Of a stretch of 64,000 nt of DNA, positions 29,161 through 34,844 are shown piece after piece. This DNA is from Mycolicibacterium sp. MU0053. Its GTDB lineage: Bacteria; Actinomycetota; Actinomycetes; Mycobacteriales; Mycobacteriaceae. Position 1 is the stretch's first letter. Each line of letters starts with the position of its first letter. The notes beneath the pieces were generated by a model. That model ran no database searches. It had not been told where the DNA came from and was given only the letters and a program-made list of their open reading frames with translations. Position numbers and translations under genes: made by a program. The stretch is taken from NCBI RefSeq assembly GCF_963378095.1, contig NZ_OY726397.1, positions 1,178,001 to 1,242,000 of the forward strand. The letters are read 5' to 3'.

Positions 29161-29193
29161 CCAGGATTAGTTGAGAACACAACTAGCTCCTGG
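29161..29193. promoter_or_regulatory. Long inverted repeat upstream of marR
   Basis: CCAGGATTAGTTG (29161-29173) and CAACTAGCTCCTGG (29180-29193) pair over 12 bp with a one- or two-base bulge and loop AGAACA. No T-run follows, so a simple terminator is unlikely. The inner TAGTTG-N6-CAACTA is of the size bound by MarR-family dimers. The rest of the 29038-29328 gap shows only GC-rich sequence and the palindrome at 29293. Confidence 0.5.
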
Positions 29194-29328: not shown

Positions 29329-29799
29329 TTGGCGGAGGCAGAATGGCTGAGCGAGTCCGAACAGCAGATGTGGCGTGCCTATCTCGAGAGCACTCGGCTG
29401 CTGTTGCGGGCATTGGACCATCAGCTGGAGGTCGACGCCGGGATCTCATTCGCCGACTACGAGGTGCTGGGACTGCTGTCGGAGGCGCCGCAGCGGCGGT
29501 TGCGTATGAGCGAGATCGCCGAGGCCGCGGTGACGACACGCAGCGGGGTGACTCGCGCGGTGAACAGGCTCGCGGACGCCGGGTGGCTGCGCCGGGTCCC
29601 GTGTCCGGACGACGGCCGGGGCCTGTTCGCGGAACTCACCGAAGCCGGGCTCGCAAAATTGCGGTCGGCCGCGCCGGGGCACGTGGCGATGGTGCGGCGC
29701 AACGTCTTCGAACTGATCAGCCCCCGTGATGTCAGGTTGTTCACGCACACCTATGCCGAGATCCGCGCCCACCTGCTCGACGCCCATGACCGTGAGTAA
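29329..29799 (+). CDS. MarR-family transcriptional regulator
   Basis: A 156-residue regulator. The N-terminal dimer helix is EQQMWRAYLESTRLLLRALD; the winged helix contains RLRMSEIAEAAVTTRSGVTR and VNRLADAGWLRRVPCPDDGRG (the wing arginine/aspartate turn typical of MarR). It starts with TTG at 29329, with GGGGGTG upstream. The Rieske-fusion gene begins 15 bp after its stop behind a GAGGAG site, so the regulator heads the operon. No redox cysteine pair is apparent; a single Cys lies in the wing (VPCPDD), which could sense electrophiles. The ligand is unknown. Confidence 0.88.
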   Translation: MAEAEWLSESEQQMWRAYLESTRLLLRALDHQLEVDAGISFADYEVLGLLSEAPQRRLRMSEIAEAAVTTRSGVTRAVNRLADAGWLRRVPCPDDGRGLFAELTEAGLAKLRSAAPGHVAMVRRNVFELISPRDVRLFTHTYAEIRAHLLDAHDRE

Positions 29800-29814
29800 C
29801 CCGAGGAGCAGTCA

Positions 29815-31446
29815 ATGACCACGGCGCCAGAATCGCGATCCGGCGTGCGGGTGGTGGCCCTGTCCGAGCTGCCCGATAACGCTCCGTTCGCGGTCAACAC
29901 CGCGGGTGTGGACCTTGTGCTCATCCGGCGTGGTGCGGATGTCTCTGCGTTGTATGGCCGTTGTGCACACCGTGGTGCGCTGCTCGCGGATGGGCACGTA
30001 GACGGCGACGTGGTCGTCTGTGACGTGCATGGCTGGCGTTACGACGTCGAGACCGGTGTCTCACCGGTCAACCCCGCGGTGGCGTTGGCGACGTTTGCGG
30101 CCTGGGTCCGGGACGGGGCCGTCTATGTCGACCAATCCGCGATCGCCGAGTTCGCCCGGGCCAATGGGCAATCCCACGATGACGACGGTTACCAGGGCCG
30201 GTGGGCCAGGCCCGCCGACACGGCGGAAGAACCGTTCAACACCGGAATTCATGAGCTTGCCGCGCACGGACTGAGCAAGGTCGGAAAGCACGGTCCCGCA
30301 GCGGCGATGGGCGTGCCGCGCACCGAGCTGCCGTGCTGGGATTCGATCCAGCTGGTCACCGCGCAGCTGGCGCGGCTACCGCTGCTCGATGAGGAACCGG
30401 TCAGCACCGAGACAGTGATCGGACCGGGTGCCAGACGCCCGCTGGTGCTCGACATTCCGGTGTTCGTCAGCGATATGAGCTTCGGTGCGTTGTCCGAGGA
30501 GGCCAAGACTGCGCTGGCGGCCGGGGCCGAACTCGCCGGGACGGGGATCTGTTCCGGGGAGGGCGGCATGCTTCCCGAAGAACAGCAGCAGAATTCGAGG
30601 TACTTCTACGAACTTGCCTCCGGCCGGTTCGGGTGGAGCGTTGAGCATCTGAACAAGGTCCAGGCGTTTCATTTCAAAGGGGGCCAGGGCGCCAAAACGG
30701 GTACCGGCGGACATCTTCCCGGCACCAAGGTGGTGGGAAAGATCGCCGAAGTGCGGGGTTTGGCCGCGGGCACGGCGGCGATCTCGCCGGCCCGGTTCCC
30801 GGACTGGACCTCCCTGTCGGAGTACAAGGACTTCGCCGCGCAGGTCCGCGACATCTCGGGCGGGATCCCGGTCGGCTACAAACTCAGTGCCCAACACATC
30901 GAGCGCGACCTGGACGCCGCCCTCGAGATCGGCGTCGACTACATCATCCTCGACGGCCGCGGCGGCGGAACCGGTTCCGCGCCCACGATTTTCCGCGACA
31001 ACATCTCGGTACCCACCATCCCGGCGTTGGCCCGGGCCCGCCGGCACCTGGACCGCAGTCAAAGCCGGATCACGCTGGCCATCACCGGTGGCCTCCGCAC
31101 ACCGGCGGACATGGTCAAAGCGCTGGGGCTGGGGGCCGACGCGATCGGCATCGCCAACAGCGCGATTCAGGCCATCGGCTGCGTCGGCATGCGGGCCTGC
31201 CACACCAACACCTGCCCGGTCGGCATCGCCACCCAAGATCCGCGCCTGCGCGCTCGCCTGCCGGTGCGACAGGCCGCCGAACGGTTGGACCGGTACCTGC
31301 GTTCGGCGGTGGACCTGATGGTGGTGCTCGCGCGGGCCTGCGGACACCGGCGCCTCGCCGATTTCACCCTCGAGGACCTGACGACGTTCGACCGCGACTT
31401 CGCCTACCTCAGCGGAGTCCCCTACGCAGGAGTGACGCCGCTGTGA
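29815..31446 (+). CDS. Rieske [2Fe-2S] domain fused to glutamate-synthase-type FMN domain
   Basis: A 543-residue fusion. Residues 10-110 are a Rieske ferredoxin module with ligands Cys50, His52, Cys69 and His72 (CAHRG-x-CDVHGW, C-x-H-x16-C-x2-H). From about residue 140 a glutamate synthase FMN/Fe-S domain follows: PVFVSDMSFGALSEEAKTAL, the FHFKGGQGAKTGTGGHLPG loop, ILDGRGGGTGSAPTIF, and a [3Fe-4S]-type cysteine set CVGMRACHTNTCPVG. There is no glutaminase (GATase II) domain, so it is not a complete GOGAT; similar stand-alone domains occur in N-methylglutamate synthase subunit C. It overlaps the Rieske-ThDP gene by GTGA. It is predicted cytoplasmic. The reaction is unknown; electron flow from Rieske to FMN is likely. 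Confidence 0.88.
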   Translation: MTTAPESRSGVRVVALSELPDNAPFAVNTAGVDLVLIRRGADVSALYGRCAHRGALLADGHVDGDVVVCDVHGWRYDVETGVSPVNPAVALATFAAWVRDGAVYVDQSAIAEFARANGQSHDDDGYQGRWARPADTAEEPFNTGIHELAAHGLSKVGKHGPAAAMGVPRTELPCWDSIQLVTAQLARLPLLDEEPVSTETVIGPGARRPLVLDIPVFVSDMSFGALSEEAKTALAAGAELAGTGICSGEGGMLPEEQQQNSRYFYELASGRFGWSVEHLNKVQAFHFKGGQGAKTGTGGHLPGTKVVGKIAEVRGLAAGTAAISPARFPDWTSLSEYKDFAAQVRDISGGIPVGYKLSAQHIERDLDAALEIGVDYIILDGRGGGTGSAPTIFRDNISVPTIPALARARRHLDRSQSRITLAITGGLRTPADMVKALGLGADAIGIANSAIQAIGCVGMRACHTNTCPVGIATQDPRLRARLPVRQAAERLDRYLRSAVDLMVVLARACGHRRLADFTLEDLTTFDRDFAYLSGVPYAGVTPL

Positions 31447-33401
31447 GCATCGTCGACAACGACCACGAACTCGACTGGCACAAAGCCGCCGACCCGGGCG
31501 AACTCGACGAGGGCCAGGTCGCAGCGTGCCCGGCCGGGCTCAAGACGGTGGCGGTGACCAAGCTGGACGGCCGCTACGGCGCCATCGACAATCGCTGCCC
31601 GCACCAAGGCGGACCGCTGGGGCAGGGGACCCTCGAGAACGCCAAGATCCGTTGTCCGTGGCACGGTTTCGACTTCGACCCGTTCACCGGTCAAGCCGCC
31701 GGCGGACCAGATTTCGACGTCGCAACCTACCCGGTGCAAGTGCGCGACGACGGAATCTACGTCGGCATCCCGGCACCTGCGCCCGCGCCGCGCACCGTCA
31801 GCGACGTCTTGATCGAGACCATGACCAACTGGGGCGTCGACACGGTTTTCGGGATGGTCGGTCACTCCAACCTCGGCATCGCCGAGGCCTTGCACCGCGC
31901 CGAAAGTGCTGGAAAGCTACGCTATTTCGGCATCCGTCATGAAGGGGCCGCGGCGTTTGCGGCGGCGGCCTACGGAAAACTCACCGGCCGCCCCGCGGTC
32001 TGCTTCGGTATCGCGGGGCCGGGTTCGACGAATCTGCTGACCGGGCTCTATGACGCCAAGGCCGACCGCGCGCCGGTGCTGGCACTGTCCGGCAACGTCG
32101 ATTCCGCGGTGGCCGGAAAAGGGGCGTTTCAGGATATCGACCTGCTGGCGGCGTTCGCCGATGTCGCGGTCTACTCCGAGATGGTGCGCGCCGGCTCCGA
32201 ACACGCCGAACTGATGACCCTGGCGCTCAAACACGCGATCCTCGAACGCGGGGTCGCCCACCTTGTGGTGCCCGATGAAGTGCAGATCATCGAGGACCCG
32301 GATCAACCGCCGTCTGGCCCCGAGGGCCGGATGCCCGATCTGCGGGTCGCACCGCCCGCGGCGGCGCTGGAGCAAGCGCTCGACCGCATCGCATCGGCGA
32401 CTCGCCCGGTGATCATCGTCGGAGCCGGCGCCAAGTTCGACATGGCGGCCATCGTCGCGTTCGCCGAGCGCCTGCGGGCGCCGGTGTTGACCACCTTCAA
32501 GGCCAAGGGCCAGCTCTGCGACGAGCATCCGCTGGCCTGCGGGGCGCTGGGCCGTTCGGGCACCCCGGTCGCGTCCTGGATGATGAACAAGGCCGACCTG
32601 CTGGTGGTGTTCGGCGCGTCATTCTCGAATCACACCGGCATATCGCCGTACAAGCCCATCGTCCAGGTCGATACCGACCCGCTGGCGCTGGGCCGATTCA
32701 ACCCCGTGGCGGTGCCCGTGCTCGGCGACGTGGGCGTGACGGCGTCGGCCCTGACGCACCAGCTGCGCACCCATCCGGATCTGGTCGACCAAGGCCCGGA
32801 AGTCGCCGACCGATGGTCGGTGTGGCGCACCGAGAAAGCCCGCCGCGCCGCCAAGCACCCCGACGACCGGATCGCTGCAGCGACGGTCTTCGCCGAACTC
32901 AGCCACCTCGTCCCGGCCAACGCCGTGCTCACCGTGGACGTGGGCAACCATGCCTACTCGTTCGGGCGCTACTTCGAGACCAAAGACCAACAGTCCGTGC
33001 TGATGTCGGGCTATCTCGGGTCCATCGGCTTCGGCTTCCCGGCGGCGATGGGGGCCTGGGCCGCTGGCCCCGACCGCCCCATCATCGCCGTCACCGGCGA
33101 CGGTGGCTTCGGCCAGTACCTCGCCGACTTCACCACGGCGGTCAAGTACGACATGAACATCACCCACATCCTGCTCAATAACGGTGAACTCGGCAAGATC
33201 ACCCAGGAACAGCGCAGTTCCGAGTACGAGGTGTGGCAGACCTCGCTGCACAATCCAGACTTCGCCGCGTATGCGCGAGACTGCGGCGCCTACGGGATAC
33301 AGGTCAGCAGCCCCGCCGAGTTGAACACCGCCATCGCAACGGCGCTCAGCCACCCCGGGCCGGCGCTGGTCGAGATCCTCACCGACGCGCGGTCGAGCTG
33401 A
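31443..33401 (+). CDS. Rieske [2Fe-2S] domain fused to ThDP-dependent oxidase/synthase-like enzyme
   Basis: A 652-residue fusion. Residues 8-110 are a Rieske module with Cys52, His54, Cys71 and His74 (CPHQGGPLGQG, CPWHGFDFDPFTG). A proline/alanine linker (about 112-119) leads to a full ThDP enzyme of the pyruvate oxidase/acetolactate synthase class: Pyr domain with catalytic Glu in GIRHEGAAAFAAAAYGKLTG, a central domain, and the PP domain with GDGGFGQYLADFTTAVKYD ending LLNNGELG (the GDG-x-NN ThDP motif). The GTG start is inside the stop of the previous gene, so the two proteins are made together and probably interact. A 2-oxo acid oxidase or decarboxylase feeding electrons to the Rieske centre is plausible; the substrate is unknown. 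Confidence 0.88.
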   Translation: MSIVDNDHELDWHKAADPGELDEGQVAACPAGLKTVAVTKLDGRYGAIDNRCPHQGGPLGQGTLENAKIRCPWHGFDFDPFTGQAAGGPDFDVATYPVQVRDDGIYVGIPAPAPAPRTVSDVLIETMTNWGVDTVFGMVGHSNLGIAEALHRAESAGKLRYFGIRHEGAAAFAAAAYGKLTGRPAVCFGIAGPGSTNLLTGLYDAKADRAPVLALSGNVDSAVAGKGAFQDIDLLAAFADVAVYSEMVRAGSEHAELMTLALKHAILERGVAHLVVPDEVQIIEDPDQPPSGPEGRMPDLRVAPPAAALEQALDRIASATRPVIIVGAGAKFDMAAIVAFAERLRAPVLTTFKAKGQLCDEHPLACGALGRSGTPVASWMMNKADLLVVFGASFSNHTGISPYKPIVQVDTDPLALGRFNPVAVPVLGDVGVTASALTHQLRTHPDLVDQGPEVADRWSVWRTEKARRAAKHPDDRIAAATVFAELSHLVPANAVLTVDVGNHAYSFGRYFETKDQQSVLMSGYLGSIGFGFPAAMGAWAAGPDRPIIAVTGDGGFGQYLADFTTAVKYDMNITHILLNNGELGKITQEQRSSEYEVWQTSLHNPDFAAYARDCGAYGIQVSSPAELNTAIATALSHPGPALVEILTDARSS

Positions 33402-33461: not shown

Positions 33462-34118
33462 TCACCACAGGTAGGGCACCAACCGGTACGGCACCCGCCT
33501 CCGATAATCGGGATAGCCGGCCAGGTCTTGGACGAGCATCTTCTCCTCGTCGAGGATGCGCAGGATCAGCGCGACCGCGGCGATCAGTCCGGGCAGCAGG
33601 CCCCAATAGGATCCGAGCCCCAGCGGCATGCCCGCCAACATGATCAGCGCACCGGTGTACATCGGATGGCGCACCACCCCGTACAGGCCGGTACTCACCA
33701 GCTCCTGACCGGCTTCCACGGCGATAGTCGCTGCGGCCCAACTATTCTGGACGACCACCAGGATCGCCAGGCCGTAACCCAACGCGGTCAACGCGATCCC
33801 GACGACGCACAACCAGAACGGTACGTGCGACCAACCGAACCGGTGGTCGAACGCGCTGACCACCATCATTGCCAGAAAGAACACTTGCAGCAGTCCCACC
33901 GCGAGTTTCTGGGTCCCGCGCGATTCTGCCACTGGGCCGGAACGGAGGCGACGCTGCAGGACGTCAGGACGCCTGATGGCCAGATACAGGGTGTAGGGGA
34001 TCGACAGCAGCAGCATGATCGCCAACACGGCCCATGCTTGCCAGTAGTCGAAGGTTCCTGCGGGCCAGAATAAGAGGACGCCGAACAGGACGAAACCGAG
34101 GACGGTGTACACCGCCAC
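33462..34118 (-). CDS. Isoprenylcysteine carboxyl methyltransferase-like membrane protein (1)
   Basis: A 218-residue protein with four to five membrane helices and the C-terminal ICMT/PEMT-type signature YGVVRHPMYTGALIMLAG, followed by ILDEEKMLVQDLAGYPDYRR. Such bacterial proteins are predicted SAM-dependent methyltransferases of membrane or small hydrophobic substrates; activity is unproven. The GTG at 34118 is the first normal start in frame. A few more upstream codons read ISTYLR after an AAAGG-like site, so the true start may be non-standard. It is paralogous to the gene at 34178-34844 (shared SAFDHRFGWS and RHPMY blocks) and lies downstream of the ABC exporter on the same strand. Confidence 0.8.
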   Translation of the reverse strand: MAVYTVLGFVLFGVLLFWPAGTFDYWQAWAVLAIMLLLSIPYTLYLAIRRPDVLQRRLRSGPVAESRGTQKLAVGLLQVFFLAMMVVSAFDHRFGWSHVPFWLCVVGIALTALGYGLAILVVVQNSWAAATIAVEAGQELVSTGLYGVVRHPMYTGALIMLAGMPLGLGSYWGLLPGLIAAVALILRILDEEKMLVQDLAGYPDYRRRVPYRLVPYLW

Positions 34119-34177
34119 GCGTAGATAGGTGCTGATGGTTGTTGCCTTTCTACTCGAACGTTTCGATCAAATCCCGT

Positions 34178-34844
34178 TCACCAGACGCGGGGCACCAACC
34201 GATAACGGACGTACTCGGAGTAGCCGTCCAGTGCGTTGGTGAGCATCCGCTCCTCGTCGAGGATGCGGGACGCCGAGTAATGCCAATGCGGGAACGACGA
34301 TGACCAGACCCCAGTAGGAGTCGAGCGCCGGCGGCGTTCCGAACATCATGATCAGCGTGCCGGAATACATCGGATGGCGCACCACCGCATACAGACCCGT
34401 GGTGACCAGTTGCTGTCCCGGCTCGACGGTGATGGTCGCGGCGGCGTAACTGTTCTGGATTACCACGAGCTGGGCCAGTAGGAGACCGGCGGCCACCAGC
34501 ACAGTGCCGATCACGTTGACCCCAAGCGACACCGACGACCAACCGAACCGATGATCGAATGCGCTGACCACCAGCATCGCTGCCACCAATACGACGATCA
34601 CGACCATGATGGCGCGTTGTAGCGGACGGGTCTCGGCGGTAGGGCCGGCCCGCATCCGCCGTTGCAGTGCGGCGGGATCGCGAACCGCAAGATAGCAGCT
34701 CGGAACCAGGGTGGTGACCAAGAAGACCGCGATGAAAACCCATGCCTGCCAGTAGTTGAACGTGCCGGCCGGCAAAAACAGCGCCATACCGAAGAGCAGT
34801 AGCCCGATCAGTGCGGAGGCGGCGGTTTGCAGCGCAATCTTCAT
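34178..34844 (-). pseudogene. Isoprenylcysteine carboxyl methyltransferase-like protein (2), frameshifted near its 3' end
   Basis: The frame from ATG 34844 gives a normal ICMT-like protein (FNYWQAWVFIAVF, SAFDHRFGWSS, YAVVRHPMYSGTLIMM) up to ALALLGVP, then leaves homology. After a one-base shift at the GGG run 34267-34269 the other frame continues RILDEERMLTNALDGYSEYV and RYRLVPRVW, ending at a stop at 34178, which aligns with the C-terminus of the paralogue at 33462. So a single-base insertion (or a sequencing error) replaces the last ~30 residues. The unshifted frame would stop at 34167. It starts 10 bp after the ABC permease stop, in the same operon. Confidence 0.75.

Follow-up and report, generated by a model that had tools for sequence, protein, structure and literature searches.

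A MarR-headed operon of two Rieske fusion enzymes in Mycolicibacterium sp. MU0053: a possible undescribed electron-transfer partnership

Organisation of the operon

The 64,000-nucleotide stretch of Mycolicibacterium sp. MU0053 analysed here (the window) carries a plus-strand operon of three genes, coding for a MarR regulator, a protein that joins a Rieske [2Fe-2S] domain to a glutamate synthase (GltS) flavin mononucleotide (FMN) domain, and a protein that joins another Rieske domain to a thiamine diphosphate (ThDP) enzyme. As a first-pass annotation had pointed out, the two enzyme genes are adjacent and each product has its own N-terminal Rieske module, on which the Pfam matches and the coordinates agree. 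Both modules score above the PF00355 cut-off and show the spacing C-x-H-x16-C-x2-H, and the GTG start of the ThDP gene at 31443 lies inside the stop of the GltS-type gene, which gives the GTGA overlap. The genes, their domains, the conservation of the ligands, the co-inheritance, the companion genes and the link between a conserved site and the MarR gene were all computed directly, and the two enzymes are a real, conserved and apparently undescribed pair. The operon consists of the following features:

29168..29185, no strand: predicted MarR operator, palindrome TAGTT-N8-AACTA, upstream of the operon (pattern search; window sequence TAGTTGAGAACACAACTA)
29329..29799 including the stop, + strand: MarR-family regulator, 156 aa, TTG start (Pfam MarR_2 PF12802, 3.6e-15)
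29815..31446, + strand: Rieske-GltS/FMN protein, 543 aa (PF00355 1.1e-15 and PF01645 4.9e-89)
31443..31446, + strand: GTGA start/stop overlap between the GltS-type stop and the ThDP GTG start (sequence)
31443..33401, + strand: Rieske-ThDP protein, 652 aa, pyruvate-oxidase/acetolactate-synthase-like (PF00355 8.7e-16 and PF02776/PF00205/PF02775)

Co-occurrence and spread of the pair

Among 198 genomes of the genus, the GltS-type gene was found in 19 and the ThDP gene in the identical 19, the two being adjacent and co-directional in every carrier. The chance of identical 19-genome sets is 7e-27 for independent genomes, a merely indicative value since the genomes share ancestry; the pairing exceeds chance because the genes are adjacent in 19/19 carriers. 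In a sample of 298 genomes of the order, five have both genes, four (outside the genus) the ThDP gene alone and one the GltS-type gene alone (Fisher p 3.9e-8, without phylogenetic correction). The co-occurrence of both fusions anticipated by the first-pass annotation is thus present at both levels.

A scan of public genomes, from which the best 80 of 187 GltS-type loci were kept, recovered mycobacteria, proteobacteria, cyanobacteria, acidobacteria and others, and the linked pair was found in alpha- and gammaproteobacteria, one cyanobacterium and one acidobacterium. The ThDP gene lies in the fetched flank of 37 of the 80 loci (15 non-mycobacterial; two cut by a contig end), while in the 43 other genomes, one of which has a linked remnant, it was found elsewhere in 13. 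Distances among the GltS-type proteins and among the ThDP proteins show a correlation of 0.93 for 38 linked pairs, made up of 25 mycobacterial loci (0.60) and 13 others (0.97), and of 0.52 for 13 unlinked pairs, all without control for species relatedness. A second GltS-type gene, 78% identical and without a ThDP partner, was seen about 5 kb from the operon of one carrier (G140:C1:3766429-3768045).

The two-protein electron path proposed for the pair, running from ThDP to FMN, is favoured by the co-inheritance, the conserved ligands and the neighbouring genes. Two counts go the other way: 4 of the 9 ThDP carriers in the order sample lack the GltS-type gene, and 30 of the 80 GltS-type genomes gave no ThDP match at E 1e-90, an absence that is partly uncertain because many of them are draft metagenome-assembled genomes. 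Rare co-occurrence, named beforehand as evidence against such a path, was not what emerged, as co-occurrence is strong in the genus; yet the pair is not obligate, and because each enzyme is also found alone, a path reserved for these two proteins cannot explain everything.

The solitary genes may instead be read as members of one pathway whose enzymes are not wired together, each Rieske domain being a docking ferredoxin for general reductases or other carriers, and the linkage reflecting nothing more than co-regulation. Consistent with this, the 20 neighbours of solitary GltS-type genes revealed no shared pathway, and with a mean identity of about 22% the two Rieske domains are no recent duplicates of a single domain. 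On the other hand, the adjacency in all genus carriers, the start/stop codon overlap in the window and the correlated divergence of both proteins argue for a closer tie, and this alternative appears rather unlikely.

The Rieske-GltS protein

Three features were delimited in the GltS-type protein:

29848..30087, + strand: N-terminal Rieske domain (PF00355, residues 12-91), ligands C50, H52, C69 and H72
30418..31344, + strand: glutamate synthase FMN domain (PF01645, residues 202-510, E 4.9e-89)
31180..31215, + strand: [3Fe-4S] cysteine motif C-x5-C-x4-C (C456, C462, C467), aligned to solved GltS chains

The window protein was aligned with 84 fetched relatives, some of whose loci possibly come from the same or closely related genomes. 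The four Rieske ligands are intact in all 85 rows, and 84/84 fetched proteins have 16 residues between the two ligand pairs. The [3Fe-4S] cysteines are kept in 83 of the 84 non-gap rows, the exception being a frame-shifted gene. The latter (genome G014, L112 8357-9965) is split across two frames, by either a real shift or an assembly error.

The best match among solved structures is a GltS large chain (E 6.8e-40, residues 220-481). In agreement with the first description of a GltS-type enzyme without glutaminase, the Pfam scan of this protein found neither a glutaminase nor a GXGXG domain, its matches being Rieske, Glu_synthase and FMN_dh alone. Public names of the relatives include 'glutamate synthase-related protein', and one source calls two close relatives methylamine---glutamate N-methyltransferase subunit C.

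As for the amination step suggested earlier, the evidence is divided. Lys288 and Arg314, which correspond to GltS K966 and R992, are present in 84/84 non-gap rows, but Thr297 and His300 replace E975 and Q978 in the same 84/84, which speaks against amination and leaves the step uncertain. K966, Q978 and R992 are presumably the 2-oxoglutarate-site residues of glutamate synthase (GOGAT), and of this set K and R are kept while Q978 has become His.

Amination would be the main activity if the GltS-type protein were an amine synthase of the MgsC/GlxD kind, acting on a 2-oxo acid that the ThDP enzyme forms or consumes. The invariant Lys288 and Arg314, the retained [3Fe-4S] site and the N-methyltransferase name of the two relatives fit such a role. 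It is nevertheless improbable, given His300 and Thr297, a scan of nine flanking window genes that revealed no MgsA/MgsB-like partner (of the glutaminase or GXGXG type), and a separate GltS-type gene (1541-codon frame) in the window genome.

The Rieske-ThDP protein

The ThDP protein is made up of four domains:

31476..31733, + strand: N-terminal Rieske domain (PF00355, residues 12-97), ligands C52, H54, C71 and H74
31794..32147, + strand: ThDP pyrimidine-binding domain with Glu167 (PF02776, residues 118-235, 6.3e-34)
32367..32753, + strand: central domain, FAD- (flavin adenine dinucleotide) or nucleotide-binding in some relatives (PF00205, residues 309-437, 4.4e-31)
32937..33377, + strand: ThDP diphosphate-binding domain with GDG...NN, and Lys585 at the position of POX Phe479 (PF02775, residues 499-645, 5.5e-38)

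Its alignment comprises the window protein and 54 relatives, with two truncated pieces (L101 and L109) excluded and possible near-duplicate genomes. The four Rieske ligands are intact in 55/55 rows, with a gap between the ligand pairs of 16 residues in 37 rows, 21 in 17 and 22 in one; the ligands are thus kept in every row of the two alignments (85/85 and 55/55), as the Rieske centres of the earlier reading would require. Glu167, which we take to be catalytic, is kept in 55/55 rows and GDG in 53/53 non-gap rows.

By sequence, its best matches in NCBIfam and the PDB are pyruvate oxidases, although the protein stays under the cut-off of all 25 NCBIfam models shown of the 60 matched (404 bits with PRK08611 vs. 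a cut-off of 742). The AlphaFold model (pLDDT 87.7, pTM 0.85) has a PoxB-type pyruvate oxidase as its top match with the fold aligner, and the public names of the relatives include 'pyruvate oxidase' and 'thiamine pyrophosphate-dependent enzyme'.

Three observations count against an oxidase that hands on electrons. The phenylalanine position of POX (Phe479/Phe465, presumably sitting between ThDP and FAD) is occupied by Lys585 in 53/53 non-gap rows, the model matches non-redox ThDP enzymes nearly as well, and the first Foldseek match by E-value is an acetohydroxyacid synthase. HKA synthases, acetolactate synthases and benzaldehyde lyases all score within about 3 Z units of PoxB. The protein could consequently be a non-oxidative lyase or carboligase resembling these enzymes, with the Rieske domain sensing redox state or oxygen, or serving a structural purpose. 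We consider this a poor candidate explanation, since the closest sequence matches, sub-threshold as they are, point to pyruvate oxidases, and since its partner, itself of the flavin oxidoreductase type, has a Rieske domain too. Judging from the conserved residues, the catalytic domains of both enzymes are probably active, though the signatures of their parent families are lost.

Companion genes

Conserved neighbours of the pair, which the first-pass annotation had proposed to look for, do exist: an antiporter, a DUF5996 protein and a membrane haem/Rieske protein recur. The antiporter (PF00999) lies beside 10 of the 80 GltS-type loci and 3 of the 13 unlinked ThDP loci, its nearest NCBIfam model being a potassium/proton antiporter, with a score below the cut-off. 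DUF5996 (PF19459) lies beside 17 of the 80 (several weak or partial) and 4 of the 13, and adjoins the pair in 5 of the 19 genus carriers. The DUF5996 proteins (L069 9633-10472 and relatives) have a confident predicted fold with no clear PDB match, and no paper naming DUF5996 was found in the literature searched.

The membrane protein, in which a ferric-reductase/MsrQ-like part is joined to a Rieske domain at the C-terminus, occurs in 9 of the 80 GltS-type loci, none mycobacterial. An example is L091 12167-13992, with eight similar loci. In 9/9 of these loci it is adjoined by a 253-aa-type protein that has several invariant residues, Cys and His, and belongs to no Pfam family. An FMN_red flavoprotein gene is next to the ThDP gene in three of the four ThDP-only loci of the order (L141-L143), and L141 also has the antiporter and a distant DUF5996 relative (profile probability 96%, E 2.8e-9). 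Such recurring partners beside either gene suggest that the operon belongs to a broader redox module, possibly with an exchangeable flavin partner.

Not all of the data favour this module. DUF5996 shows no association with the pair at the genome level in the genus (8/19 carriers vs. 56/179 non-carriers, p 0.44), so that its tie there is positional only, and it was not found in the window genome. In the fourth ThDP-only locus, L113 on a 6.1 kb contig, the ThDP gene is followed not by FMN_red but by an ECF sigma factor gene. ECF-type sigma factor genes were seen near the Rieske-ThDP gene in two order genomes without the GltS-type gene (L113 2204-2800 and L141 11180-11779).

The MarR regulator and its predicted operator

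The regulator combines a MarR fold with a conserved palindromic predicted operator upstream. The pattern TAGTT-N8-AACTA has one exact match in the 64 kb window (0.00 expected), which is also the single site in the 5.45 Mb genome, and occurs in 6 of the first 148 loci (one being the window), always upstream of the operon. Orthologues 64-78% identical to the window MarR are present in five other carriers, i.e. in 6/19 with the window genome, and Cys92, the sole cysteine of the window protein, is invariant in 6/6. The earlier description of the operon as MarR-headed is correct for the window but not for the genus: MarR leads it in just 2 of the 19 carriers (the window genome, G000, and G144) and is unlinked in the four other bearers (G217, G016, G140 and G145; L181-L184).

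The same pattern lies directly upstream of all four unlinked MarR genes. When the upstream regions of the operons were scanned over about 1 kb or more, it was found in 5/6 MarR-bearing carriers (G000, G144, G016, G140 and G217) vs. 0/13 others (Fisher p 0.0005); minus the window and G144, from which the pattern was derived, the figures are 3/4 vs. 0/13 (p 0.006), neither test being corrected for relatedness. Across whole genomes, the sites number one in G000 and in G144 (at the operon), two in G016 and in G140 (at MarR and at the operon), one in G145 (at MarR) and six in G217, where they lie at MarR, at the operon, in a tandem pair before a DoxX gene and in a pair beside a PPE gene. None was found in three genomes without a MarR orthologue. 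The tandem pairs of G217 (L186 5619-5672 and L185 5926-5981, with DoxX and PPE-family neighbours) may mark further regulon members.

Opposite each unlinked MarR gene lies a divergent luciferase-like monooxygenase gene, with the operator between the two, and FMN_red-type and flavodoxin-fold genes (the latter labelled WrbA-like in our analysis) lie downstream of the monooxygenase; in G140, the reductase next to it was not found by tblastn. At E 1e-90 the monooxygenase was detected in all four unlinked-MarR carriers.

Several results reduce the force of this picture. The operator is missing upstream of the operon in G145, one of the six MarR bearers. A reversed control pattern occurs 0-4 times per genome and strand, with 4 in the window genome against the single real site; a lone site is thus not rare, and it is the positions of the sites that carry the argument. 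At the same E-value threshold, the monooxygenase was also found in G176, a carrier without a MarR orthologue, but in neither the window genome nor G144, so that the case for a regulon is drawn from the relatives.

As one component of the joint explanation given below, it is conceivable, and tentatively proposed on the strength of these sites, that in some mycobacteria the operon is under the control of MarR bound at TAGTT-N8-AACTA. The common operator, together with the flavin-enzyme genes near MarR in the relatives, suggests a flavin/quinone redox-stress regulon rather than ordinary nitrogen assimilation, a reading to which expression in M. smegmatis adds weakly. In M. smegmatis mc2 155, a protein 87% identical to the GltS-type protein is named ferredoxin-dependent glutamate synthase. 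PMC8866557 lists three ordered genes, a pyruvate dehydrogenase (MSMEG_5593), a ferredoxin-dependent glutamate synthase (MSMEG_5594) and a MarR gene (MSMEG_5595), that are jointly lower in an altRP deletion mutant and in the zinc-replete wild type than in the zinc-limited wild type, and a section heading of the paper associates zinc limitation with an increased oxidative stress response. The three genes thus change in step, with higher levels in a stress condition. MSMEG_5594 and MSMEG_5593 also appear in proteomic comparison tables of two further papers. From gene names and order, MSMEG_5593-5595 appear to be orthologues of the operon.

Proposed mechanism and its meaning

The best explanation as a whole, with a probability of about 0.4, is a ThDP to Rieske to Rieske to FMN wiring under MarR redox-stress control. 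Known electron acceptors of ThDP enzymes are FAD, quinones, lipoamide and low-potential Fe-S clusters. Here, each enzyme would bring its own one-electron Rieske [2Fe-2S] module: the ThDP enzyme would oxidise a pyruvate-type 2-oxo acid and pass single electrons to the Rieske centre attached to it, perhaps by way of FAD bound in the central domain, and from that centre to a flavin partner, which in mycobacteria and many proteobacteria would be the Rieske-GltS protein. In the latter, the Rieske and [3Fe-4S] centres would feed FMN, which may reduce an imine, oxo or quinone-like substrate. In other lineages, the membrane haem-b/Rieske protein or the FMN_red flavoprotein could join or replace Rieske-GltS as the acceptor. 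MarR, at its predicted operator, would control the operon in some mycobacteria within a flavin/quinone redox-stress response. The ThDP-to-FMN path is plausible; cofactor loading, the path itself, the substrates, MarR binding and the stress role are what we infer from the sequence comparisons.

That such unlike enzymes have the same kind of Rieske module, and frequently share both inheritance and control, points to an electron-transfer partnership not described so far, possibly one that defends against redox stress. Somewhat speculatively, the pair might constitute a new electron-transfer system with a Rieske outlet and a Rieske inlet (and, in some lineages, a membrane haem-b/Rieske third station), serving against flavin/quinone or electrophile stress together with the antiporter and DUF5996. 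If true, 2-oxo-acid oxidation would be wired to a reduction in a new way, by a Rieske outlet paired with a flavin enzyme that is likewise fused to a Rieske domain. The family spans several phyla under generic enzyme names, and its apparent orthologues in M. smegmatis make the question directly testable. Through the predicted operator, a so far unnamed MarR regulator is also linked to the operon and, in the relatives, to genes for flavin enzymes.

Second copy and local history

A second operon locus is present in the window genome at about 5.33 Mb (G000:C1, about 5,330,000; L109, 7954-10284), with flanks that match G012 and partly G447. This locus, and not the window position, is likely the ancestral site. 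Its GltS-type gene is intact and 99% identical to the window copy, its ThDP gene is broken by an internal deletion that corresponds to window 31552-32828, and no MarR gene turned up at the site. Because that site is syntenic, its ThDP copy broken and its MarR gene not found, the window copy is probably a relocated or duplicated intact operon. Beyond the operon and convergent with it, the window has two tandem isoprenylcysteine/phospholipid methyltransferase-like genes (33462-34844), then an ABC transporter and a TetR regulator, up to 38055.

Comparison with known systems

No functional description of the Rieske-GltS/Rieske-ThDP pair was found in the literature searched, nor any characterised system matching it, in line with the initial remark that no described pathway contains the two. 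With PoxB (E. coli), POX (L. plantarum) and PQO (C. glutamicum), the ThDP protein shares the three-domain ThDP core, Glu167 and GDG...NN, whereas it differs in its N-terminal Rieske domain, in Lys585 for the presumed phenylalanine and in its sub-cut-off NCBIfam scores. The GltS-type protein resembles GltB and ferredoxin-dependent GOGAT in its homologous FMN domain, [3Fe-4S] cysteines and K966/R992 equivalents, but has no glutaminase, carries an N-terminal Rieske domain, and has His for Q978 and Thr for E975.

In the N-methylglutamate synthase, MgsC/GlxD is a stand-alone GltS FMN domain. The window protein is alike in having this domain without glutaminase, and two of its relatives are annotated accordingly, but it is a Rieske fusion. 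The Rieske domains are homologous to the Rieske ferredoxins CarAc, BphF and HcaC, with an identical ligand motif; here, in contrast, they are fused to ThDP and GltS enzymes, in an operon without an oxygenase. As for the MsrQ/YedZ haem-b membrane proteins, the membrane part of the companion protein resembles MsrQ, below the cut-off, and differs from it in its own C-terminal Rieske domain.

MarR regulators of flavin/quinone reductases are known from C. jejuni (RrpA/RrpB, PMC8765430) and S. aureus (MhqR, PMC7662651). Similarities to them are the flavodoxin-fold reductase genes beside MarR in the relatives, the conserved cysteine and the DoxX gene behind tandem predicted sites in G217, whereas the window MarR is predicted to control a Rieske-fusion operon.

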